This document shows, in pieces, positions 3,490 to 12,653 of a stretch of 22,057 nucleotides of DNA; within the stretch, counting starts at the first letter, position 1, and every line of letters starts with the position of its first letter. Source of the DNA: a virus; IMG/VR virus record IMGVR_UViG_3300042544_000722, positions 1-22,057 of that record. One strand, 5' to 3'. The position numbers and the translations under genes are program-made. The notes below the pieces were generated by a model. That model saw only the letters and a list, made by a program, of their open reading frames with translations. It was not told where the DNA came from and made no database searches.

Positions 3490-3822
3490 TCAATTCTCTC
3501 TTGTTTTTCTTTGAATGTCCTGTTCTCTCTTCTCGAAGGATTCTAGCAACCCCATCAGCTCATCTAGCTTATGACTTTCCCTAAACGATTCCTGAAGTTT
3601 GTCGTGTACGCTTTGTGTCGCAAGAATTAAGATTGCCTCCTGAGACAACTCCTTGTGTAGATACTCAGACAGAATACTTAAACTTAAAGAACCTGAACTG
3701 TCTTCAGACCATTTAGCTACTGCCATTGTAATACCCATTGCAACCTCTTCAGTTGATTGCTTCATTCCCAATGCCTTTGTCAATGAGCCGGCATTGTGGT
3801 TGAACTTAATTTCACTTTTCAT
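3490..3822 (-). CDS. Hypothetical helical protein, 110 aa; first gene after ribozyme 1
   Basis: Not recognised. The protein is mainly alpha-helical (TEEVAMGITMAVAKWSED, then LSEYLHKELSQEAILILATQ) with a charged C-terminus. Its ATG is about 25 bases downstream of the end of the hammerhead ribozyme, in the leader AAAAAAATATG, and would be the first gene on the RNA released by ribozyme cleavage. It is followed by the 74-aa gene with a one-base gap. Confidence 0.65.
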   Translation of the reverse strand: MKSEIKFNHNAGSLTKALGMKQSTEEVAMGITMAVAKWSEDSSGSLSLSILSEYLHKELSQEAILILATQSVHDKLQESFRESHKLDELMGLLESFEKREQDIQRKTREN

Positions 3823-3846: not shown

Positions 3847-3897
3847 TCTGTTTCATGCTTTTGCAATCATCAGCCGAGACACTCATCCCGATACAGA
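3847..3897 (-). ncRNA. Hammerhead ribozyme, type III (copy 1)
   Basis: Read on the minus strand. Stem III is TCTGT (3897-3893) pairing with ACAGA (3851-3847). Cleavage is predicted after GUA, between 3892 and 3891. Stem I is TCGGGA/TCTCGG (six pairs, two of them wobble) closed by loop TGAGTG. The core CTGATGA is at 3873-3867, stem II is TTGC/GCAT with loop AAAA, and then GAAA (3854-3851). Order and core match the hammerhead consensus. The outer stem II pair is U-U instead of the usual G-C. Stem sequences differ from copies 2 and 3 while pairing is kept. It lies between the amidotransferase fusion and the 110-aa gene. Confidence 0.88.
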
Positions 3898-3923
3898 GGG
3901 TAGTGTCTTCACCGACACTACCC
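3898..3923 (-). repeat. 10-bp hairpin preceding ribozyme 1
   Basis: GGGTAGTGTC pairs perfectly with GACACTACCC around a six-base loop. It lies 6 bases after the stop codon of the amidotransferase fusion and directly before the ribozyme in the sense of transcription. It contains the GTGTC/GACAC core shared by six intergenic hairpins in this block. No T-run follows, so it does not look like an intrinsic terminator. It could protect the 3' end made by ribozyme cleavage. Confidence 0.7.
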
Positions 3924-3929
3924 ATAAAC

Positions 3930-5039
3930 TTAGTCCCAATGCTGAAACCGTAACACATCAGACTCAGTGAACCACTCATCGCACCCACTGCAATGATAGT
4001 TTGCGAACTCATCATGCTCCAAATCGTGAAAGCAATTTACACAAATTGGCTTCTCATTCTCAATGTCGAACTCGCACCCCTCGCATTCATCATCCTTTAT
4101 CTCAAGAAGATTCAACTCATATTCACTGAACCTACTGAATGACCTGACCGTCTCCACCTCGTCCTGCTCCTTATACCAACTGTATTGATATGGCTTCTGT
4201 GTGTACGTCTTGTGGTGAACCTCACCTGCTGAACGCTCCTTGATATTGAAGTATATCCAACAGTTGAACACCCTGCCATCTGTGGCTTTTATCTCAACCT
4301 GCTTCCTCCTGTACCAATTAGGATGCCCCTCTAACCTGTCTAACTCAGCCAATACTGTTCCACTGACTTTGAATATGTCCACCTCCACATTGTGACCTCT
4401 ACCCTTGTCCTCAATCAGATAGGGTAGACCCTTGATGACCAACGGATACTTGTCTTTGGTCTGACCTTTGCCAATGTACTTTGAACTCGTAAGGTAGCTG
4501 TAGTAGTTACTATAATTTTTCTTCAGCGTGCCATACACGGCAACTAAATTGTCCTCTAACACATTGTCCTTGCTGTACCATACGCCATCCTTCTGAACCC
4601 ACGATTCTTTGTTGTAAATCTGAAACGTCCTGCTGTACGTGTTAATCGTAACGAACCTACAATCATAACGCTCCAACTCTTGCTTCCACTTGTGACGTGG
4701 TACACGCCCGATATTCTCTGCCAATACTCTTGAGTCACTTTTCTTGTGGTCACCCAATGCTCTGATAGTACCGTTCATCATCAGCCACTCCTGCTTATTG
4801 TTACCGCACCTGAACGGGTGCGTATTGTCTCTGTTGATAGCCCCGACTGTAGCGTATCTGAAGTGAGCAATGTACGGACGCTCTGTATCCAATACCTTGT
4901 ACTCTGCTGATTTGTGGTACGTCACGTGAAACGTGTCCAACCAAATGATTCCCAACCCGTGCGGATTGATTCTTGCTGAAGTTTTTGCAACCTCCTGAGG
5001 AACTGTCTTCCCTGACTGCTTGATAATAATTATACACAT
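3930..5039 (-). CDS. Class II glutamine amidotransferase + gamma-glutamylcyclotransferase + zinc-binding tail (fusion)
   Basis: A 369-aa protein in three parts. Residues 1-155 look like a class II (Ntn) glutamine amidotransferase: C2 directly after Met is the expected nucleophile, followed by AHFRYATVG (58-66), NTHPF (72-76) and MNGTI (88-92). Residues 165-285 look like a GGCT/AIG2-type cyclotransferase, with YGTL at 169-172 and LDRLEGHPNWYRR containing probable catalytic E237. Residues 319-353 carry three CxxC pairs (C319/C322, C333/C336, C350/C353), a likely zinc ribbon. Together they could hydrolyse glutamine or glutamyl amides and cyclise gamma-glutamyl groups. A GTGTCT hairpin and a TAAATTTG box precede it, and ribozyme 1 follows. 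The fusion itself is unfamiliar to me. Confidence 0.75.
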   Translation of the reverse strand: MCIIIIKQSGKTVPQEVAKTSARINPHGLGIIWLDTFHVTYHKSAEYKVLDTERPYIAHFRYATVGAINRDNTHPFRCGNNKQEWLMMNGTIRALGDHKKSDSRVLAENIGRVPRHKWKQELERYDCRFVTINTYSRTFQIYNKESWVQKDGVWYSKDNVLEDNLVAVYGTLKKNYSNYYSYLTSSKYIGKGQTKDKYPLVIKGLPYLIEDKGRGHNVEVDIFKVSGTVLAELDRLEGHPNWYRRKQVEIKATDGRVFNCWIYFNIKERSAGEVHHKTYTQKPYQYSWYKEQDEVETVRSFSRFSEYELNLLEIKDDECEGCEFDIENEKPICVNCFHDLEHDEFANYHCSGCDEWFTESDVLRFQHWD

Positions 5040-5059
5040 AGTTTTTTGTTTAATAGGCA

Positions 5060-5075
5060 GTGTCTATGAAGACAC
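5060..5075 (-). repeat. GTGTCT-N4-AGACAC hairpin before the amidotransferase fusion
   Basis: GTGTCT pairs perfectly with AGACAC around a four-base loop. It lies about 20 bases upstream of the fusion gene's ATG, in its 5' leader. It belongs to the hairpin family found in each of the longer gaps of the leftward block, but here no hammerhead accompanies it. Confidence 0.65.
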
Positions 5076-5131
5076 AGAACCTAAGTAATGAACGAATAAT
5101 GAACTAAGATACGACATTTATCTGACATACG

Positions 5132-5139
5132 CAAATTTA
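5132..5139 (-). promoter_or_regulatory. Promoter-like TAAATTTG box for the amidotransferase fusion
   Basis: The minus strand reads TAAATTTG, a match to TAnnTTTG, with a TTTG 22 bases upstream inside the end of the neighbouring gene. It lies about 95 bases before the ATG at 5039, leaving a leader that holds the direct repeat GTTCATTA (two copies three bases apart) and the hairpin at 5060-5075. Confidence 0.4.
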
Positions 5140-5141
5140 TT

Positions 5142-5303
5142 TTAATAAACTATTCTTGCGTCAAATTTTTTACGTTCCAATTTTGGATGCTTTTCAATGA
5201 ATTTATAGTATGCCTTGTCAATAGCCTCCCACTTTGTGTGAGCGACTATTGACCATACGCATACCTTACCATAATAGACATTGAAGTAGTGACTGTTTTC
5301 CAC
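5142..5303 (-). CDS. Small basic protein, 53 aa, GTG start
   Basis: Starts with GTG at 5303, overlapping the upstream TAG stop by one base (TAGTG), in line with the TAATG couplings elsewhere. The frame is open to 5384, but the extra residues fall inside the membrane-peptide gene and read poorly. The protein (ENSHYFNVYYGKVCVWSIVA, then a lysine-rich helix) resembles the 49-aa product at 5404-5553 in layout: an aromatic strand, then V.A.T...A..KA. They may be distant paralogues. The function is unknown. Confidence 0.55.
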   Translation of the reverse strand: MENSHYFNVYYGKVCVWSIVAHTKWEAIDKAYYKFIEKHPKLERKKFDARIVY

Positions 5304-5407
5304 TATAAAAGGTTTTGAACTGCTACAACTATAGCCCCTAATACATACAATCCAACTACTATAGCCAAGATTGCTTTCAACCAATTGATGTTCTTTAATT
5401 CTCTCAT
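5303..5407 (-). CDS. Single-helix membrane peptide, 34 aa
   Basis: MRELKNINWLKAILAIVVGL continues as one hydrophobic helix (about residues 10-32) and ends QNLL. Its ATG overlaps the upstream stop as ATGA and its stop overlaps the next start as TAGTG, so it is coupled on both sides. That coupling is the main reason to accept such a short gene. The positive N-terminus suggests an N-in inner-membrane orientation. The function is unknown. Confidence 0.55.
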   Translation of the reverse strand: MRELKNINWLKAILAIVVGLYVLGAIVVAVQNLL

Positions 5408-5553
5408 ATTAATTCTATTAAATCTAAATCGTTTTTTATTCTTATTGCTTTTTTTCTTGCCAACTCATAGGCTTTGGCTCTTGTGCGTGCTTTTACTTTT
5501 ACGAACCTCATAGGGTCGTGATAGTAGTGTGCTGAAAATATATATTCTCTCAT
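5404..5553 (-). CDS. Small basic protein, 49 aa
   Basis: Not recognised by function. The protein is rich in Lys and Arg (MRFVKVKARTRAKAYELARK), with an aromatic N-terminal strand YIFSAHYYHDP and a basic helix, which resembles small single-domain nucleic-acid-associated proteins. That is a guess from composition only. It is coupled to the downstream membrane peptide by ATGA and has similar spacing of features to the 53-aa product at 5142-5303. Confidence 0.6.
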   Translation of the reverse strand: MREYIFSAHYYHDPMRFVKVKARTRAKAYELARKKAIRIKNDLDLIELI

Positions 5554-5580
5554 CTTTTTTAAGTTTGTAGTACCTACTAT

Positions 5581-5799
5581 TTACCTACTATAAATATCTT
5601 CCCAACCATCAACCGCACGCTCATTGTAGTGCCTCGGCTCATCCTGTTCCTCATTATCATCAGCCTCAACCCAATAGTCTAACTCAGGGAAACATTCAGT
5701 GTGACGCTTTAGCATCTCGCTTGCCTCCTGTTCTGTTAATCCTCTTGTATGGCATACAGCGTACTCACTACATGCCTCCATCAATCTAAATAGTCTCAT
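5581..5799 (-). CDS. Hypothetical acidic protein, 72 aa
   Basis: Not recognised. The N-terminal half is a helix with MRLFRLMEACSEYAVCHTRG; the C-terminal half is strongly acidic (EADDNEEQDEP). The ATG at 5799 overlaps the stop of the zinc-binding gene upstream by 4 bases (ATGA type). The 27 bases after its stop hold no clear signal before the next ATG. Confidence 0.6.
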   Translation of the reverse strand: MRLFRLMEACSEYAVCHTRGLTEQEASEMLKRHTECFPELDYWVEADDNEEQDEPRHYNERAVDGWEDIYSR

Positions 5800-6071
5800 A
5801 TTTTTCTTAGATTATAGGGCTCTGCATCAAGCCCATATTCAAAACTATACCCAATCTCATTTAGTTTGCTCTCAGCGTCCCGCAACGATTCATAGGACTG
5901 CTCCATCGCGTCAATGATTGCACGCACCTCATCAGGTAGCGTCTCGTAATGCTCGAATAAATCTTTTTGATTCTCGCACATCTCGCATAGGTCATACTCA
6001 AACCACATATCGTGGCGTCCTTGTAGGCGTGAACACTCTGAACACTCCCATACATCATTTGGTTTTGTCAT
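5796..6071 (-). CDS. Small zinc-ribbon protein, 91 aa
   Basis: Two CxxC pairs near the N-terminus (C10/C13 and C29/C32, in WECSECSRL and LCEMCE) form a likely zinc ribbon. A long charged helix follows. I start it at the ATG at 6071, one base after the upstream stop, because residues before it (from 6110) show no conservation-like features and would overlap the neighbour. The ATGs at 6095 and 6110 remain possible. The ribbon suggests nucleic-acid or protein binding; no partner is evident. Confidence 0.6.
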   Translation of the reverse strand: MTKPNDVWECSECSRLQGRHDMWFEYDLCEMCENQKDLFEHYETLPDEVRAIIDAMEQSYESLRDAESKLNEIGYSFEYGLDAEPYNLRKI

Positions 6072-6072
6072 C

Positions 6073-6258
6073 TTATAGGTTTTTAATTGTTTCATAAATT
6101 CTAACTCCATTCTTCACCTCCATTGGTATTTGATAAACTGCTGTAAGCCTATTCAAGTACGTCTCGTATTCAACCAACTCCTTCTCAGGCAAATACAATA
6201 GCCTGTCAATTACGTTCTGAATTAATTCATTCCGCTGTTCAATTGTTTCTGTTGTCAT
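6073..6258 (-). CDS. Hypothetical helical protein, 61 aa; first gene after ribozyme 2
   Basis: Not recognised. MTTETIEQRNELIQNVIDRL continues as a helical, acidic protein ending ETIKNL. It is the first gene downstream of ribozyme 2, with leader AAAAAATTATG and a short hairpin (6274-6293) between ribozyme and ATG. It is followed one base later by the zinc-ribbon gene. Confidence 0.6.
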   Translation of the reverse strand: MTTETIEQRNELIQNVIDRLLYLPEKELVEYETYLNRLTAVYQIPMEVKNGVRIYETIKNL

Positions 6259-6273
6259 AATTTTTTGTTTTGT

Positions 6274-6293
6274 GTAGGGTGTTTAAACCCTAC
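6274..6293 (-). other. Leader hairpin between ribozyme 2 and its downstream gene
   Basis: GTAGGGT pairs with ACCCTAC (7 bp) around a six-base loop, 16 bases before the ATG at 6258. The equivalent position after ribozyme 3 holds a similar bulged hairpin (7719-7738, GTAG...CTAC). The two are related in sequence (CACGTAG...CCCTACAC), suggesting a duplicated leader module. No equivalent is seen after ribozyme 1. Confidence 0.5.
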
Positions 6294-6360
6294 GTGTTTA
6301 AAATTCCGTTTCGTTCTTTTGAACTCATCAGCCTGAGCACTCACTCAGGGACGGTTACAC
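6294..6360 (-). ncRNA. Hammerhead ribozyme, type III (copy 2)
   Basis: On the minus strand, CCG-U (6354-6351) pairs with A-CGG (6309-6306) as stem III, and outer GTGT/ACAC may extend it across an internal loop. Cleavage is predicted after the canonical GUC, between 6350 and 6349. Stem I is CCTGAG/CTCAGG, fully paired, with loop TGAGTG identical to copy 1. CTGATGA is at 6331-6325. Stem II GTTC/GAAC is perfect with loop AAAA, followed by GAAA. All invariant core positions are present. This is the best of the three by sequence. It lies between the genes at 6407 and 6258. Confidence 0.9.
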
Positions 6361-6380
6361 AACCCCTAAGGGCTGTGTAA
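6355..6380 (-). other. Hairpin abutting ribozyme 2, competing with its outer stem III
   Basis: TTACACA pairs with TGTGTAA (7 bp), with an inner CCC/GGG pairing. The strand nearest the ribozyme is the same GTGTAA that could extend stem III by pairing with ACAC at 6294-6297. The hairpin may stack on the ribozyme or compete with its outer helix. Confidence 0.5.
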
Positions 6381-6382
6381 TT

Positions 6383-6398
6383 GTGTCTTTGCAGACAC
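6383..6398 (-). repeat. GTGTCT-N4-AGACAC hairpin upstream of ribozyme 2
   Basis: A perfect 6-bp stem. On the transcribed (minus) strand its loop is GCAA, a GNRA tetraloop. It lies 8 bases after the stop codon of the 68-aa gene, in the same relative place as the hairpins before ribozymes 1 and 3. Confidence 0.65.
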
Positions 6399-6406
6399 TA
6401 CCATTT

Positions 6407-6613
6407 TTAATCAGGCAACTGACCCACCTCAATTGCTAAGTCAAGCCCCGACTCCAACGCATCGTTAATGTCCGCATAGGACTCACATAGACTCTCACTG
6501 CCATTATCGTGCAACGTGTACACTTCAAACAGTCCGCTCTGAAACACTTCTTTTGCTTTGTCGGTTACCAATAACCACACAAATGCATCTCTAATTTTCA
6601 TTTGATTTTCCAT
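6407..6613 (-). CDS. Hypothetical protein, 68 aa
   Basis: Not recognised. MKIRDAFVWLLVTDKAKEVF is followed by an acidic region ending VGQLPD; the central LHDNGSESLCESYADINDAL looks like a small alpha/beta fold. Two starts are possible: 6613 (MENQMKIR) and 6601 (MKIR). The second has the recurrent AAATCAAATG context. Either way it overlaps the end of the 55-aa gene upstream. It is the last gene before ribozyme 2. Confidence 0.6.
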   Translation of the reverse strand: MENQMKIRDAFVWLLVTDKAKEVFQSGLFEVYTLHDNGSESLCESYADINDALESGLDLAIEVGQLPD

Positions 6614-6758
6614 TTTTTTTATTTTTTAATTTTAAGGTTTCTAATTGTTTTTCAAATTCAATTCTCATTCCATCTAAATCGTAACCCTCAACACTTAATT
6701 CTTCATCAATATAGTGGTACATTTTTCTCACCAAAATATAATCAGTTTCTTTTTCCAT
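6591..6758 (-). CDS. Small charged protein, 55 aa
   Basis: A short gene starting MEKETDYILVRKMYHYIDEE and ending in a lysine/asparagine-rich tail, mostly helical. It fills an otherwise empty stretch between its neighbours and overlaps the start of the 68-aa gene by 11-23 bases. The ATG is 14 bases after the upstream stop, in AAGATTATG. The function is unknown. Confidence 0.5.
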   Translation of the reverse strand: MEKETDYILVRKMYHYIDEELSVEGYDLDGMRIEFEKQLETLKLKNKKNGKSNEN

Positions 6759-6772
6759 AATCTTAAATTGAT

Positions 6773-7345
6773 TTAATTGTTTAATAAAACTCTAACTGCT
6801 TTTACTACGTCATCAGGATGAACCACTATAAAGTAGTTTGGTCTGTACATGCCCGCAGTGTCGGACTCCATACGCTTTGTCTCTATGCCCGCCTCTGTAA
6901 GCAACGCCTCCACCGCCTCAAGCCTTGACTCCACCAACGTATAAAAGACGCTGTACACGGGTCGACTGTAGCCCTCAGGCATCCATTCACTTGTCGTGTC
7001 AAACTCAGGCTCAATAGCCACCGCCTGATACTCAAGCTCCCACATTTGCCTTCTTCTATATCCGTCCCACACCCATACGTTAGTCCATTCACCGTTCCAC
7101 TCCCTGCCATTCAGAAACCATACGCCACGCTCCTGCCTTACACTGACACCATTCAGCCCGTTTAACCGTTCCTTTGTGGTCTTGCTATCCCATCCCGCAT
7201 CAGTAATCCATAGGTTATTACCACGCCATTCAGCTATCTTGTTTTCAAATAACCACAGGCAATCGCCATCCGTTCTGCTGTTGTCAATCTTTAACGACCT
7301 ACGTTCCTCAAACGCCCTCGTAATTTCTGCTGTAATCTGTCTCAT
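6773..7345 (-). CDS. Conserved phage hypothetical protein, 190 aa, two-part
   Basis: No function known to me. The N-terminal about 100 residues have the pattern SRTDGDCLWLFENKIAEWRG, ITDAGWDSKTTKERLNGLNG, then VWFLNGREWNGEW. I associate this with a recurrent phage domain of unknown role, possibly a small beta-rich fold. The last about 70 residues (VESRLEAVEALLTEAGIETK, then FIVVHPDDVVKAVRVL) look like a separate alpha/beta ferredoxin-like domain. Its ATG overlaps the upstream membrane-peptide stop as ATGA. Base composition is somewhat more GC-rich than its neighbours. Confidence 0.7.
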   Translation of the reverse strand: MRQITAEITRAFEERRSLKIDNSRTDGDCLWLFENKIAEWRGNNLWITDAGWDSKTTKERLNGLNGVSVRQERGVWFLNGREWNGEWTNVWVWDGYRRRQMWELEYQAVAIEPEFDTTSEWMPEGYSRPVYSVFYTLVESRLEAVEALLTEAGIETKRMESDTAGMYRPNYFIVVHPDDVVKAVRVLLNN

Positions 7346-7452
7346 TTTTTCTTTGATTTAAAGTCCTCAATTAATACGTTAATAGTAAGCCATAAAAATA
7401 AACTCAGACTGCCAATAATAACAGCCTCAATAATTGTGATTTGTGTTCCCAT
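7342..7452 (-). CDS. Single-helix membrane peptide, 36 aa
   Basis: MGTQITIIEAVIIGSLSLFL continues as one hydrophobic helix (residues 5-27) with the tail EDFKSKKK. Its stop overlaps the ATG of the 190-aa gene as ATGA. The lysine-rich C-terminus suggests an N-out, C-in inner-membrane orientation. It is the third tiny membrane protein of this operon, and its function is unknown. Confidence 0.6.
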   Translation of the reverse strand: MGTQITIIEAVIIGSLSLFLWLTINVLIEDFKSKKK

Positions 7453-7457
7453 TTTTT

Positions 7458-7703
7458 TTAATTATTAATTGCCTCGTTATACGTGTCAAAAAAGTTTTCT
7501 TCACCACCTCTTAGGGCTAAAAACTTTATTGCATAACCTCCCTGATAATTTGTGAAGTGCACAATCTCAATCCAATTTTCTAAACAGATACGTGCTTCAG
7601 TGACTGTCATGTCATAAACAGAATACTTGATTTTCACTGTTGGGCATTGCTCATTGTAAACTCTTAACAACTCATTGGTCATTTGTTTTTCACTTTTTCT
7701 CAT
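7458..7703 (-). CDS. Hypothetical protein, 81 aa; first gene after ribozyme 3
   Basis: Not recognised. MRKSEKQMTNELLRVYNEQC is followed by an apparently beta-rich middle (VKIKYSVYDMTVTEARICLE) and WIEIVHFTNYQGGYAIKFLA. The ATG at 7703 has leader TAAAAATTATG; a second possible ATG lies at codon 8. It is the first gene on the RNA that ribozyme 3 would release. Confidence 0.6.
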   Translation of the reverse strand: MRKSEKQMTNELLRVYNEQCPTVKIKYSVYDMTVTEARICLENWIEIVHFTNYQGGYAIKFLALRGGEENFFDTYNEAINN

Positions 7704-7718
7704 AATTTTTAAATTTGT

Positions 7719-7738
7719 GTAGGGCTTTTAACCGCTAC
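7719..7738 (-). other. Leader hairpin between ribozyme 3 and its downstream gene
   Basis: GTAG/CTAC plus GG/CC with one bulged base forms a short hairpin 15 bases before the ATG at 7703. It matches the hairpin at 6274-6293 in position and flanking sequence (CACGTAG...CCCTACAC), but has lost perfect pairing. Confidence 0.4.
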
Positions 7739-7747
7739 GTGTTTATA

Positions 7748-7803
7748 ATTCCGTTTCATGCTCTTGCAATCATCAGCATAGGCAACTACCTATGTACGGC
7801 AAT
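7748..7803 (-). ncRNA. Hammerhead ribozyme, type III (copy 3)
   Basis: On the minus strand, CCG-U (7799-7796) pairs with A-CGG (7754-7751), extended by ATT/AAT past a bulged G. Cleavage is predicted after GUA, between 7795 and 7794. Stem I is CATAGG/CCTATG, fully paired, with loop TAGTTG. The core CTGATGA is at 7776-7770, stem II TTGC/GCAT with loop AAGA, then GAAA. Stem I has a different sequence from copies 1 and 2 but full complementarity, i.e. compensatory change. It lies between the amidoligase-like gene and the 81-aa gene. Confidence 0.88.
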
Positions 7804-7810
7804 ATTGTAA

Positions 7811-7842
7811 ATGAGATAGTGTCTGCATAGACACTATCTCAT
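7811..7842 (-). repeat. 14-bp perfect hairpin upstream of ribozyme 3
   Basis: ATGAGATAGTGTCT pairs perfectly with AGACACTATCTCAT around a four-base loop. It lies 7 bases after the amidoligase stop codon. It contains the GTGTCT/AGACAC family core and is the longest member. No T-run follows, so an mRNA 3'-end-protecting role fits better than termination. Confidence 0.75.
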
Positions 7843-7849
7843 ATTGTGC

Positions 7850-8719
7850 TTATCTTGAGATATATGAATTTATTTCAGCATCAATAATGCCTGTCAAGAT
7901 ATATTTCCTGAAATGCTTTGCTACGCTGAATATAAAATCAACCCTGTTTTCTTCGCCATTGTACATGGATAGGATGATAGGCTTTATACGCTTCAGAAAC
8001 GCTTCGTGCGACCCGTTTGGGTTGTTTACACTAAAGTCAACCAATTCATAAAACAGCTCATAACGTCGCATCATTTGCTTAACAGACTCAAACCGTGACG
8101 GTAACCTAAACTCTAAGCAGTTATGCTTAGATAATGCCACCTCATAACGTGTGCCCGTGCTAATGTCTTCTAACCTGTTATTATGGTTACAATAGCTATT
8201 TCTTAACCTGTTGCGAAATAATGCAAACACAATGCCTGAATTTTTACGGACTGCCTGTCTTAATTCTCTGCCTGTCATGCCATCTACAGCGACCGTAATA
8301 TGACCGCCACAATTAGCACTTGACGGGCTGTAACGGTCATCTATTATCTTTTCAGCTTTATGCATCATATCAAAAACCTTTGTACGCCACTTGCCCGCGG
8401 GCAGTAATGGCAGTACGTGCGTAACCGCCTCATAACCGCACGAAGAGTCCCGCTCAAAACCGCAAAACAATTCATATTCCTTTACAGCGTTTCGGCTCAA
8501 TTCATTTTTTTCAACCTCAAAACCGATGGTAAATTTTGACTCAAAGTCCATACCGTCAAATTTGATAGCTTTGCTTTGCTCTGATTTTTTAAGACCCGAC
8601 ACGTCAACGGCGTGCTTAGTCTTGTTAAGAAATAAAGGTGCGGGCTTAGAATGATAGCCCGTAACGACACCTCTTTGGTGTTCACCTGTAGTCGTGTAAA
8701 CAATACCCTGATTGCTCAT
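7850..8719 (-). CDS. Amidoligase-like protein (glutamine-synthetase-fold COOH-NH2 ligase)
   Basis: A 289-aa protein with the ordered motifs of the putative amidoligase (Amidoligase_2) family: FTIGFEVEKN (E68, E70), ERDSSCGYEAVTHVLPL (D91, E97), NCGGHITV (C137-H140, the CGxH signature), and CLEFRLPSRF (E203, R205) leading into a long helix. The acidic and His residues fit a metal/ATP-binding GS-like site that joins a carboxylate to an amine. The first about 55 residues are an unrecognised extension. In other genomes, as I recall, such ligases are associated with class II amidotransferases and gamma-glutamylcyclotransferases; both activities are predicted in the fusion at 3930-5039. The substrate cannot be read from the sequence. 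Confidence 0.7.
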   Translation of the reverse strand: MSNQGIVYTTTGEHQRGVVTGYHSKPAPLFLNKTKHAVDVSGLKKSEQSKAIKFDGMDFESKFTIGFEVEKNELSRNAVKEYELFCGFERDSSCGYEAVTHVLPLLPAGKWRTKVFDMMHKAEKIIDDRYSPSSANCGGHITVAVDGMTGRELRQAVRKNSGIVFALFRNRLRNSYCNHNNRLEDISTGTRYEVALSKHNCLEFRLPSRFESVKQMMRRYELFYELVDFSVNNPNGSHEAFLKRIKPIILSMYNGEENRVDFIFSVAKHFRKYILTGIIDAEINSYISR

Positions 8720-10553: not shown

Positions 10554-12170
10554 ATGATAGAGACATCAGGAATTGGGTATTCACCCAAGGACTTGCAGTT
10601 CGGAAACGAGGGACGCAAGAAATTAATCAGTGGAGTTATTAAAATGTCAAAGGCTGTCAAGTCAACCTTGGGTCCAAGTGGAAACACGGTGCTCATTGAG
10701 AGCCCGCATCATACTCATGGTATTACTGTGACTAAGGATGGTGTTACTGTGGCTAAGGCTATTGACCTGATTGACCCAAGTGAGAACCTTGCGGTTAAGA
10801 TGATGAAGGAGGCGGCAGATAAGACCGCTACTGCGGCAGGTGATGGAACGACTACGGCTATTGTCTTGACTGAGGGGTTAGTGTTAGGTGGTCTTGAGCA
10901 TATCAAGGACGAGATGAATAGGACTGAGGTGTTGAGACACATGGTGGACATAACTGCTAAGGTGGTGGACAAGCTAAAGCGTAAGGCAAAGAAGGTCAGC
11001 AGTACGATGCTATTAGACGTGGCATCAATCTCATCAAACAATGACCGTGAGATAGGGCGTATTATTTCTGAGGTATACAAGGATGTGGGTAAGACCGGTA
11101 TTGTTACGGTGGAGCGAAGCCAAACGGCTGAGACGTATGCCGAGACAACCAAGGGGTTGAAGATTGATAGGGGGTATTTAAGTCCGCTGTTCATTAATGA
11201 CACCAAGAAGGATGAGTGTGTGTTTGAGGATGTGATGGTATTGGTGGCTGACATGGAGATAGCAAACATATTGCAAATTGAGAACGTGCTAAAACCAATA
11301 ATTTCCGAAGGAAAAAAATTATTGGTGATATCGCCGTGCAATCCTAACGTGGTAAACACGCTTGCAGCAAACAGCATGAAGGGAAATTTGAAGGTAGTGG
11401 CTGTGCCGCCACCAAACTTTGGATATAAGCAGCATGAGCTGATGCATGACATAGCGATAAGCGTTGGTGCTACCTACTTCAGCGAGAAGACGGGTGACGA
11501 CTTGAGCATCATCAACTACGGTGACTTGGGTCACGCAAGTAAAGTCATTGTGAGCAAGGACAAGACGGTTATCATTCGCAGTGCAGCAAAGTCAGACGAG
11601 AGTATTATTGAGGAGCGTGTTAAGCAGTTGTGGAACGCACATAAGGAGGCAACTAAGAAGGGTGACAAAGACTTTATATTGGAGCGTATAGCATCACTTA
11701 CAGGTGGCATAGGTGTCATCTTTGTGGGTGGTCAGACTGACCTAGAGCAGAAGGAGCTGTACGACAGGGTTGATGACGCGGTCTGTGCGGTACGTTCAGC
11801 ACTCGAGGAGGGTATATTGCCCGGAGCAGGCAAAGCGTTGCTTGATGAGAGTGCTGACTTGGGACAGGAGAGTAATAGTGTTGAGTATAATGCCGCACTT
11901 GCTATTGTTCGCAATGCACTGATGGCTCCATTCCAACAAATATTGGCTAACGCAGGTCTTAAGCCGAGTGACGTGTACAAGGACAAAACTCCTATTGGTC
12001 ACGGATACAACCTAAAGACAGGTGAGATGGGTGACCTGATTGAGATGGGGGTTATTGACCCGCTAAAGGTTACACGATGTGCACTGCAGAACGCAGTGAG
12101 TGTGGCAGTGACCATACTTTCAACTAACGCAATCATTACAATGGCACGCACCTATGAGCAGCAACAATAA
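10554..12170 (+). CDS. groEL: Phage-encoded GroEL-type chaperonin
   Basis: A 538-aa group I chaperonin, close to the usual about 545. ATP-site motifs are present: TLGPSGN near 38-44, TKDGVTVAK at 60-68, GDGTTTA with D97, and VDDAVCAVRSALEEG, where D408 corresponds to the catalytic aspartate of bacterial GroEL. The hinge glycines appear as EEGILPGAG (bacteria usually have PGGG). The C-terminus ends ARTYEQQQ with no Gly-Gly-Met tail. It should form a folding chamber for virion or other phage proteins with the GroES encoded downstream. The start context is AAATCAAATTAAATG. The sequence is clearly divergent from host-type GroEL, which argues for long residence in phages. Confidence 0.95.
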   Translation: MIETSGIGYSPKDLQFGNEGRKKLISGVIKMSKAVKSTLGPSGNTVLIESPHHTHGITVTKDGVTVAKAIDLIDPSENLAVKMMKEAADKTATAAGDGTTTAIVLTEGLVLGGLEHIKDEMNRTEVLRHMVDITAKVVDKLKRKAKKVSSTMLLDVASISSNNDREIGRIISEVYKDVGKTGIVTVERSQTAETYAETTKGLKIDRGYLSPLFINDTKKDECVFEDVMVLVADMEIANILQIENVLKPIISEGKKLLVISPCNPNVVNTLAANSMKGNLKVVAVPPPNFGYKQHELMHDIAISVGATYFSEKTGDDLSIINYGDLGHASKVIVSKDKTVIIRSAAKSDESIIEERVKQLWNAHKEATKKGDKDFILERIASLTGGIGVIFVGGQTDLEQKELYDRVDDAVCAVRSALEEGILPGAGKALLDESADLGQESNSVEYNAALAIVRNALMAPFQQILANAGLKPSDVYKDKTPIGHGYNLKTGEMGDLIEMGVIDPLKVTRCALQNAVSVAVTILSTNAIITMARTYEQQQ

Positions 12171-12174
12171 AAAC

Positions 12175-12384
12175 ATGGGATGGCAATGCCCTAATTGCTT
12201 AGTAGTGTACGCTCCAAGTGTAGAAAGATGTGAGTGTTCTGTTCTACCAAAGGGGTCATTTAGTGGCTTTGGAACGACAACTACAGCAACAATAACAATG
12301 TGTAGTGGGTATATAAGTGAAACAAAAGATGGGATATGCTCTAAATGTGCAAATCCTAAATGGAATCACCCAACTTATACGTAA
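12175..12384 (+). CDS. Small zinc-ribbon protein between groEL and groES
   Basis: A 69-aa protein with CPNC (C5/C8) and CEC (C19/C21) at the N-terminus and C43, C55/C58 further on, so probably one or two zinc sites. The WQCPNC...YAP pattern is common in small phage proteins, but I know no function. I prefer the ATG at 12175, four bases after the groEL stop; the ATG at 12154 inside groEL is also open and would add seven polar residues. Placement between the chaperonin genes implies co-expression. Confidence 0.6.
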   Translation: MGWQCPNCLVVYAPSVERCECSVLPKGSFSGFGTTTTATITMCSGYISETKDGICSKCANPKWNHPTYT

Positions 12385-12395
12385 TTAAAAAATAT

Positions 12396-12653
12396 ATGAA
12401 ACCAATCGGAAAATATATAATAGTTAAAGACATACAAGAGACCATCACTACGGAGAGTGGTCTGATACTATCAGGTGAAGACACCAATCAGCTACGCTAT
12501 AAGCGTGCCTCTGTCATAGCACCCGGCACTGACGTGAGTGTTATTGACGAAGGTGACGAGTTATACTACGACAAGGGTCACAGCTTCACGATGCTCATAG
12601 ATGACAGTCAGTATACCATCATCTCTGAGCGTGACGTGGTTGTGGTGCTTTAG
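12396..12653 (+). CDS. groES: GroES-type co-chaperonin
   Basis: An 85-aa protein, slightly shorter than the usual 95-97. The beta-barrel start KYIIVKDIQE, the flexible loop ending in SGLIL (21-25, corresponding to the GGIVL motif that contacts GroEL), VIAPG (40-44), VIDEGDELYYDKG, and the end YTIISERDVVVVL follow the GroES order. The frame is open upstream to 12360, but the family similarity begins at the ATG at 12396. It caps the phage GroEL, possibly also that of the host. The stop codon overlaps by 4 bases the stop of the leftward gene that follows. Confidence 0.85.
   Translation: MKPIGKYIIVKDIQETITTESGLILSGEDTNQLRYKRASVIAPGTDVSVIDEGDELYYDKGHSFTMLIDDSQYTIISERDVVVVL

Follow-up and report, generated by a model that had tools for sequence, protein, structure and literature searches.

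Hammerhead ribozymes between genes of a putative viral operon, and the RNA folds that precede them

Introduction

The virus record IMGVR_UViG_3300042544_000722 (G000) is a stretch of 22,057 bases, the whole of which was analyzed here and is referred to as the window. Its minus strand carries a putative leftward operon in which three intergenic gaps each hold an element that, by its sequence and by covariation in relatives, is a type III hammerhead ribozyme. All three lie between open reading frames (ORFs) of their own strand. Hammerhead A (positions 7750–7800) is flanked upstream by an ORF of 289 amino acids (7850–8719) and downstream by one of 81 (7458–7703), hammerhead B (6305–6355) by ORFs of 68 (6407–6613) and 61 amino acids (6073–6258, taken from the ORF list), and hammerhead C (3847–3897) by ORFs of 369 (3930–5039) and 110 amino acids (3490–3822).

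Clusters of hammerheads flanking genes have been described in prophages (Perreault et al. 2011, PMC3088659), and the available part of that report proposes that they process transcripts into operon- or gene-length messenger RNAs (mRNAs), with cleavage reported for three clusters in vitro and for one in Escherichia coli. The same part reports natural stem II starts with U10.1-U11.1 – U-U being the best tolerated mispair at this place – and leaves open the biological purpose of bacterial and phage hammerheads.

Here, we compare the window hammerheads with those of other viral contigs, and find two features of the group. In about six of ten cases the ribozyme is immediately preceded on its 5′ side by a hairpin, or sometimes by an H-type pseudoknot, a fold whose sequence is freely replaced. 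The cleavage-site nucleotide (H17) also shows much stronger covariation with the first stem II pair than with any of the other positions tested.

Results

Three hammerheads in the window

A hammerhead descriptor run over both strands of the window finds exactly three elements, A, B, and C. A covariance model (R1) derived from 33 hammerheads on other viral contigs, with the window excluded, gives them 58.2 bits (expectation value, E, 4.5e-17), 69.5 bits (E 7.6e-21), and 65.4 bits (E 1.8e-19) respectively, the next-best match in the window scoring 7.3 bits (E 5.2). All three have the CUGAUGA and GAAA core, U16.1-A15.1, and an H17 other than G, with loops capping stems I and II, an open stem III, and pairing in all three stems. 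The loose core CTGANGA...GAAA occurs four times in the window, as A, B, C, and a long-spacer case at 4784–4740. Cleavage is predicted between A7795 and C7794 in A, between C6350 and C6349 in B, and between A3892 and U3891 in C. These are the points proposed in a first-pass annotation of this DNA, which had also placed the elements correctly in intergenic gaps of the minus strand, with the order of parts borne out here by sequence and descriptor; its assignment to type III is backed by the independent model R1 and by covariation in relatives.

What that annotation said of the stems needs some correction. Stem I pairs in all three copies as claimed, but that of C (UCGGGA/UCUCGG) includes two G-U wobbles. 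Its compensatory change in stem II is genuine for three pairs of TTGC/GCAT, but it counted as a pair position 10.1-11.1, the start of stem II, which is G-C in B and U-U in A and C; stem II of A and C is thus three pairs plus U-U, and the change is only partly compensatory. G-C is the consensus at this place but no absolute requirement. Loop I is UAGUUG in A and UGAGUG in B and C, the latter fitting the conserved UGWGUG of relatives, of which set A (below) was selected for UGWGUG.

The window elements share with Rfam family RF00008 (Hammerhead_3) the core, the junction order, and the open stem III, and differ from it in a stem II of 4 base pairs (bp) with a tetraloop and, in A and C, in the U-U start. 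None reaches its gathering score of 48.5, a curated threshold and not a structural trait, B having 36.1 bits (E 1.5e-4) and A and C being unlisted at E ≤ 5, so that the covariance-model check proposed with the first-pass annotation comes out negative at the Rfam threshold and clearly positive with R1, a model of phage hammerheads. Eight of nine RF00008 matches in the loci of eight relatives also fall below gathering; because the Rfam type III model scores much of the group below its cut-off, phage annotation undercounts such ribozymes. When gap B was compared with phage records by BLAST, no match was longer than 24 bases or had an E below 1.

Two relatives, L065 and L012, have hammerheads at the same three sites. 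At site C, stem I is UCGGGA/UCUCGG in the window and UUGGGA/UCCCAA in L065, and stem II is UUGC/GCAU and GUCU/AGAC respectively; the changes fall on both strands, so that pairing is kept and the U-U has become G-C. We rejected the possibility that the hammerheads are recently copied mobile repeats, because stem I and the upstream fold differ among all three window copies; the sharing of the three sites by L065 and L012 also speaks against it.

A fold upstream of the ribozyme

The gaps contain more than ribozymes, and the first-pass annotation, which described the latter, overlooked both the hairpins upstream of them and a repeated palindrome, GTGTC-N6-GACAC. On the minus strand before hammerhead A is a 14-bp hairpin (7811–7842) with a loop of 4 and the palindrome as its core, separated from the ribozyme by a spacer of 11 nucleotides (nt). 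Stem III of B is directly preceded by an 11-bp hairpin of unrelated sequence (6355–6380), with the palindrome just 5′ of it (6383–6398), and stem III of C by a 10-bp hairpin with the palindrome as core (3898–3923). At site B in L065 and L012 the GTGTC hairpin itself adjoins the ribozyme; at site A, L065 resembles the window in having hairpin and spacer, and in L012 the hairpin reaches the ribozyme. A leader hairpin, GTAGGGT...ACCCTAC (6274–6293), lies between hammerhead B and the next ATG, and is kept in both relatives. The upstream hairpins were rejected as intrinsic terminators because no U-run follows on the transcribed strand, and neither terminator-like nor promoter-like sites (sigma-70 type) were found on the minus strand in the three gaps.

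The association was examined in hammerheads collected from viral contigs by two scans. A palindrome scan, which required a hammerhead core after the GTGTC palindrome, gave 98 stretches, some with 2–5 copies, from which 143 matches were extracted, and a ribozyme-only scan (loop I UGWGUG, core, 12-nt stem II, and GAAAC) gave at least 120 stretches; the descriptor was passed by 169 of 171 ribozyme-only matches among the loci in hand at that point. Set A consists of contigs from the ribozyme-only scan without those from the palindrome scan, and is poor in GTGTC hairpins for that reason. Its 92 hammerheads were thinned to 64 by removing near copies and cases with fewer than 45 nt of upstream sequence. 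Hairpins were called by a strict rule (score of at least 6, ending within 6 nt of stem III) or a looser one (score 5, within 3 nt).

In set A, the mean folding energy is −12.1 kcal/mol for the 40 nt that precede stem III, against −5.8 for shuffles and −2.0 for the 40 nt after the ribozyme. A strict hairpin precedes 38 of the 64 hammerheads, compared with 8.0% of shuffles and 5/64 downstream places, and 29 of the 38 are in contact with stem III; the looser rule yields 42 hairpins, 34 of them touching stem III, and 3 pseudoknots. The next 8 nt after these 42 hairpins contain at most 3 T in 36 cases, 4 T in four, and 5 or more in two. In a genome-contig set (38 matches, 28 past the descriptor), strict hairpins are found in 12/28 cases, against 6.7% of shuffles and 5/28 downstream places.

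Covariation was measured in equal-length composites, of which 30 were left after thinning by identity. In these, 97.3% of cells pair, and the covariation score is 0.586, compared with 0.201 when shuffled and at most 0.138 when slid. Changes on both sides of a pair are seen in 6 of 11 hairpin pairs, 2 of 4 in stem III, all 6 in stem I, and 3 of 4 in stem II, the five GTGTC pairs being invariant because the scan demanded them. In alignment A1 further pair types number 38, no more than in shuffles (38.5), and the other measures are above shuffles. These patterns suggest that the upstream fold acts as RNA.

Before some hammerheads the hairpin is replaced by a pseudoknot of the form S1-CU-S2-N-S1′-...AAAC-S2′. 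A descriptor that fixes CU and AAAC finds 11 distinct examples directly before hammerheads (in L022, L026, L051, L064, L133, L151, L183, L190, and L194), 7 elsewhere, and 6 in an equal amount of shuffled sequence. One of the 7 elsewhere, in L048, has the same look and no hammerhead; a compact H-type pseudoknot was also seen by eye in L232. No Rfam family matched the pseudoknot in the 8 loci searched.

The GTGTC palindrome

The palindrome occurs seven times in the window, against 0.03 expected, with the first of its 16 bases at 3903, 5060, 6383, 7819, 8735, 9544, and 14660. The operon and the region before it hold six copies, and the seventh is inside an ORF call on the other side; a stretch upstream of the operon (9740–9501, minus strand) is rich in CCCGTGCCC-like repeats and C runs. 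Four relatives have 12 to 17 copies. In a named relative, MW202828.1 (L225), 14 identical copies of GTGTCGTTAACGACAC lie within 11.4 kilobases (kb) at 43745–55169, several of them right before start codons, and none elsewhere in the 60,850-base record.

Beside hammerheads (138 sites) the palindrome is extended by a mean of 4.2 further outer pairs, compared with 0.96 at 304 sites without a descriptor-passing hammerhead, and 97 of the 138 extended stems end no more than one base from stem III. At least one apparently solitary palindrome, in L012, does precede a hammerhead, whose variant core escaped the descriptor, and some solo sites are therefore misfiled. That the palindrome is an integral part of the device was rejected on account of the 304 sites and of MW202828.1, with its 14 palindromes and no hammerhead.

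Such close abutment could mean that the ribozymes are active and the hairpin serves only their folding, by stacking on the short open stem III and insulating the ribozyme from upstream coding sequence, the resulting mRNA ends being inconsequential. The 97 extended GTGTC stems would fit this, as would the lack of a spare base before stem III in the 29 strict and 34 looser set-A cases. But stem III has about the same length with and without a hairpin, so that the lengths lend a stacking role no support, and a pseudoknot would seem costly for mere insulation; we regard a purely folding role as rather unlikely.

The solo copies raise a different question, namely whether the palindrome is the site of a phage protein – a stoperator-like DNA operator or an RNA hairpin – with hammerheads that share the gaps and use it as a hairpin core. 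The excess of sites without a descriptor-passing hammerhead, the 14 identical copies in MW202828.1, and copies inside ORFs would all be expected of a protein site; the greater number of outer pairs beside hammerheads, which moreover covary, and the unrelated hairpins or pseudoknot that take the same place in set A would not. At least one solo site is the misfiled one in L012, and a protein site leaves the ribozymes unexplained. We consider this account improbable as a replacement for a role in RNA, and the two may hold together.

Cleavage-site nucleotide and the first stem II pair

Among 298 distinct descriptor-passing hammerheads, those with C17 have G-C at 10.1-11.1 in 149 cases, U-U in 2, and A-A in 6; with A17 the pair is G-C in 34, U-U in 76, G-U in 5, and never A-A; and with U17 it is G-C in 10, U-U in 9, and A-A in 7. 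The mutual information of H17 is 0.48 bits with 11.1 and 0.44 with 10.1, and at most 0.11 with the 14 other positions tested, several of which also exceed permutation, a sign of relatedness. When sequences more than 75% alike are removed (79 left), the two values are 0.45 and 0.40, followed by 0.20 at 16.4 and at most 0.13 elsewhere. Thirteen groups of hammerheads at shared genomic sites show more than one state: six differ in H17 and the pair at once, three in H17 alone (all with G-C), three in the pair alone (all with A17), and one has three states; C17 with U-U occurs in none. Shared ancestry as the sole source of the link is made unlikely, because H17 is linked far less strongly to other positions within the same molecules. 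Against the rule being universal, U17 accompanies G-C in 9 of 34 genome-contig hammerheads, and a set from the Saccharibacteria phylum has C17 with G-C in 22 of 25 and no U-U. Our guess is that a direct contact, or a shared metal, between positions 17 and 10.1 explains the coupling.

These counts bear on the possibility that A and C are decaying, inactive ribozymes and that B alone works. Both have U-U at 10.1-11.1 and are unlisted by Rfam, and C has in addition two wobbles in stem I. But U-U with A17 is a frequent natural state (76/298) and, according to PMC3088659, the best tolerated mispair; the remaining pairs are intact, and R1 scores the two at 58 and 65 bits. We think inactivity of A and C quite improbable.

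Gene context

Positions relative to genes were counted with mechanical ORF calls of at least 50 amino acids, ATG starts only. Of 163 hammerheads in set 1, 15 are inside ORF calls and 136 are intergenic with both neighbors called; of these 136, 129 have a same-strand gene on either side, 7 have mixed borders, and none is between two antisense genes. The median distance from the upstream stop codon to stem III is 33 nt, about the length of a hairpin, and from ribozyme to ATG 28 nt. Own-strand genes flank the hammerhead on both sides in 49 of 66 set-A cases, with 17 mixed borders, and in 14 of 22 of the genome-contig set, with 7 mixed and 1 antisense.

The 289-residue product upstream of A has no PHROG or Pfam match, and shares 46.5% identity over 99% with a hypothetical MW202828.1 protein; the 81- and 68-residue products have no Pfam match, and the 110-residue product matches neither PHROG nor Pfam. 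The 369-residue product upstream of C contains a gamma-glutamyl cyclotransferase domain (PF06094, 79.8 bits, cut-off 22.8; PHROG 2520), with a weak class II glutamine amidotransferase match (PF13230, 21.1 bits) below the cut-off of 23. Between A and B, ORF 6773–7345 matches PF23790 (Kyanoviridae Gp96, 35.9 bits, cut-off 27). A GroEL gene is located at 10554–12170 (phrog_5725), and the small ORF that follows (12360–12653) may encode its partner, as in MW202828.1; that record has annotated GroEL, 10-kd chaperonin, and gamma-glutamyl cyclotransferase genes, and the window has matches to GroEL and gamma-glutamyl cyclotransferase.

Distribution

Thirteen whole virus records, chosen because loci from them carried hammerheads, contain 49 by R1, 3–5 in each, always on one strand and within 2.2–6.0 kb; the window has three within 4.0 kb. 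The first-pass view that three in one operon is unusual is not supported, given these records, and three in one operon is not new, since such clusters have been on record for phage operons since 2011 (PMC3088659). Hammerheads are also present in 25 of 286 genomes (loci L226–L255) from the phylum to which G015, a Saccharibacteria bin that carries L214, belongs, where the type III elements are mostly one per genome; a literature search for hammerheads in Patescibacteria found no paper. An R1 survey of 296 genomes from the phylum of a Bacteroidales bin (G014, the genome of L200) found none, and is uninformative because no positive control lies in that set.

Discussion

The identity of the ribozymes is established by sequence and covariation, as is the position of the elements between genes of the same strand and, in relatives of the window, the hairpin with its abutment on stem III and its covariation. 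We think it probable, with some reserve, that the combination of hairpin and ribozyme is a device that severs polycistronic mRNA at gene borders, so that the upstream piece would keep a structured 3′ end and the downstream piece would start with a hairpin and a 5′-hydroxyl. For the window itself, processing of the leftward transcript by A, B, and C is a plausible and leading model, judged from the sequence. This view rests on the three R1 matches in the window, the intergenic same-strand position, the covariation, the excess of strict hairpins, the pseudoknots that stand in for them, and gaps free of promoter-like and terminator-like sites, as well as on the cleavage of published clusters of a similar kind (PMC3088659, available part).

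In this model the operon would be transcribed leftward as a single RNA, and each gap would present in order a stop codon, a stable hairpin (in some relatives a pseudoknot), the type III hammerhead, a short leader, and the next start codon. Each hammerhead would fold on leaving the polymerase and cut after H17 (A7795, C6350, and A3892), a hairpin that touches stem III probably stacking on this short stem and aiding the folding of the ribozyme. The upstream mRNA would then end in the hairpin and, in B and C, a tail of about 5–6 nt with a 2′,3′-cyclic phosphate, an end that 3′ exonucleases should enter poorly, and the downstream mRNA would begin with a 5′-hydroxyl and the stem I hairpin, followed by the leader and ATG. 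Cleavage, end protection, stacking, and the separate fate of the pieces are proposals, and the chemistry of the ends is expected from general knowledge of hammerheads.

Several observations weigh against this model. By the looser rule 19 of the 64 set-A hammerheads still have neither hairpin nor pseudoknot, and the rule is passed by 29% of shuffles as well. In the Saccharibacteria phylum, for hammerheads found with R1 only, looser-rule hairpins are present upstream in 12/25 and downstream in 10/25 (shuffles 15%), and the link is not clear there because the downstream control is nearly as frequent. Stem III is, as noted, no different in length when a hairpin is present, the hairpin of window hammerhead A stands 11 nt from its ribozyme without contact, and MW202828.1 has the operon genes and no hammerhead by R1.

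Ligation is a known reverse reaction of hammerheads, and with several on one transcript they could in principle do more than cut mRNA, by releasing RNA pieces and joining them into circles or spliced products. We hold this to be extremely improbable: each ribozyme sits before its own start codon, and circular or joined products were sought in published clusters and not detected, as far as the available part of that report goes (PMC3088659).

The proposed device has counterparts elsewhere. In phage T7, RNase III sites between early genes cut polycistronic mRNA and leave structured ends; the intergenic cut and the structured ends are alike, and the difference is that a host protein cuts in T7 whereas here RNA would. 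RiboJ-type insulators of synthetic biology join a hammerhead to a hairpin for a defined mRNA end, the hairpin being downstream of the ribozyme in RiboJ and upstream in the phage elements. The prophage clusters of PMC3088659 are alike in having several hammerheads between phage operon genes and U10.1-U11.1 starts, and differ in that no fold fixed 5′ of the ribozyme, and no coupling of H17 to 10.1-11.1, is described in the available part of that report. Neither of these, nor composites filling same-strand gene gaps at 3–5 per genome, was found in the literature searched, which left most subscription papers outside and does not prove novelty.

More broadly, and tentatively enough that we would not call it probable, diverse viruses may share a modular device – a type III hammerhead between cistrons with any hairpin, or a compact H-type pseudoknot, placed against it – that gives terminator-like 3′ ends and clean 5′ ends without stopping transcription, with H17 coupled to the first stem II pair (C17 mostly with G-C; A17 with U-U or G-C; U17 with G-C, U-U, or A-A; C17 with U-U nearly absent) in a way that points to a direct or metal-mediated contact between 17 and 10.1. 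The link between H17 and 10.1-11.1, drawn from 298 natural sequences, would then be a specific claim about the active site, and as the upstream fold is freely swapped, any stable 3′ block is predicted to work. If this is true, many phages would use catalytic RNA to divide their transcripts, the upstream product receiving a protected end, and hammerheads of bacteria and phages would thereby gain a definite function.

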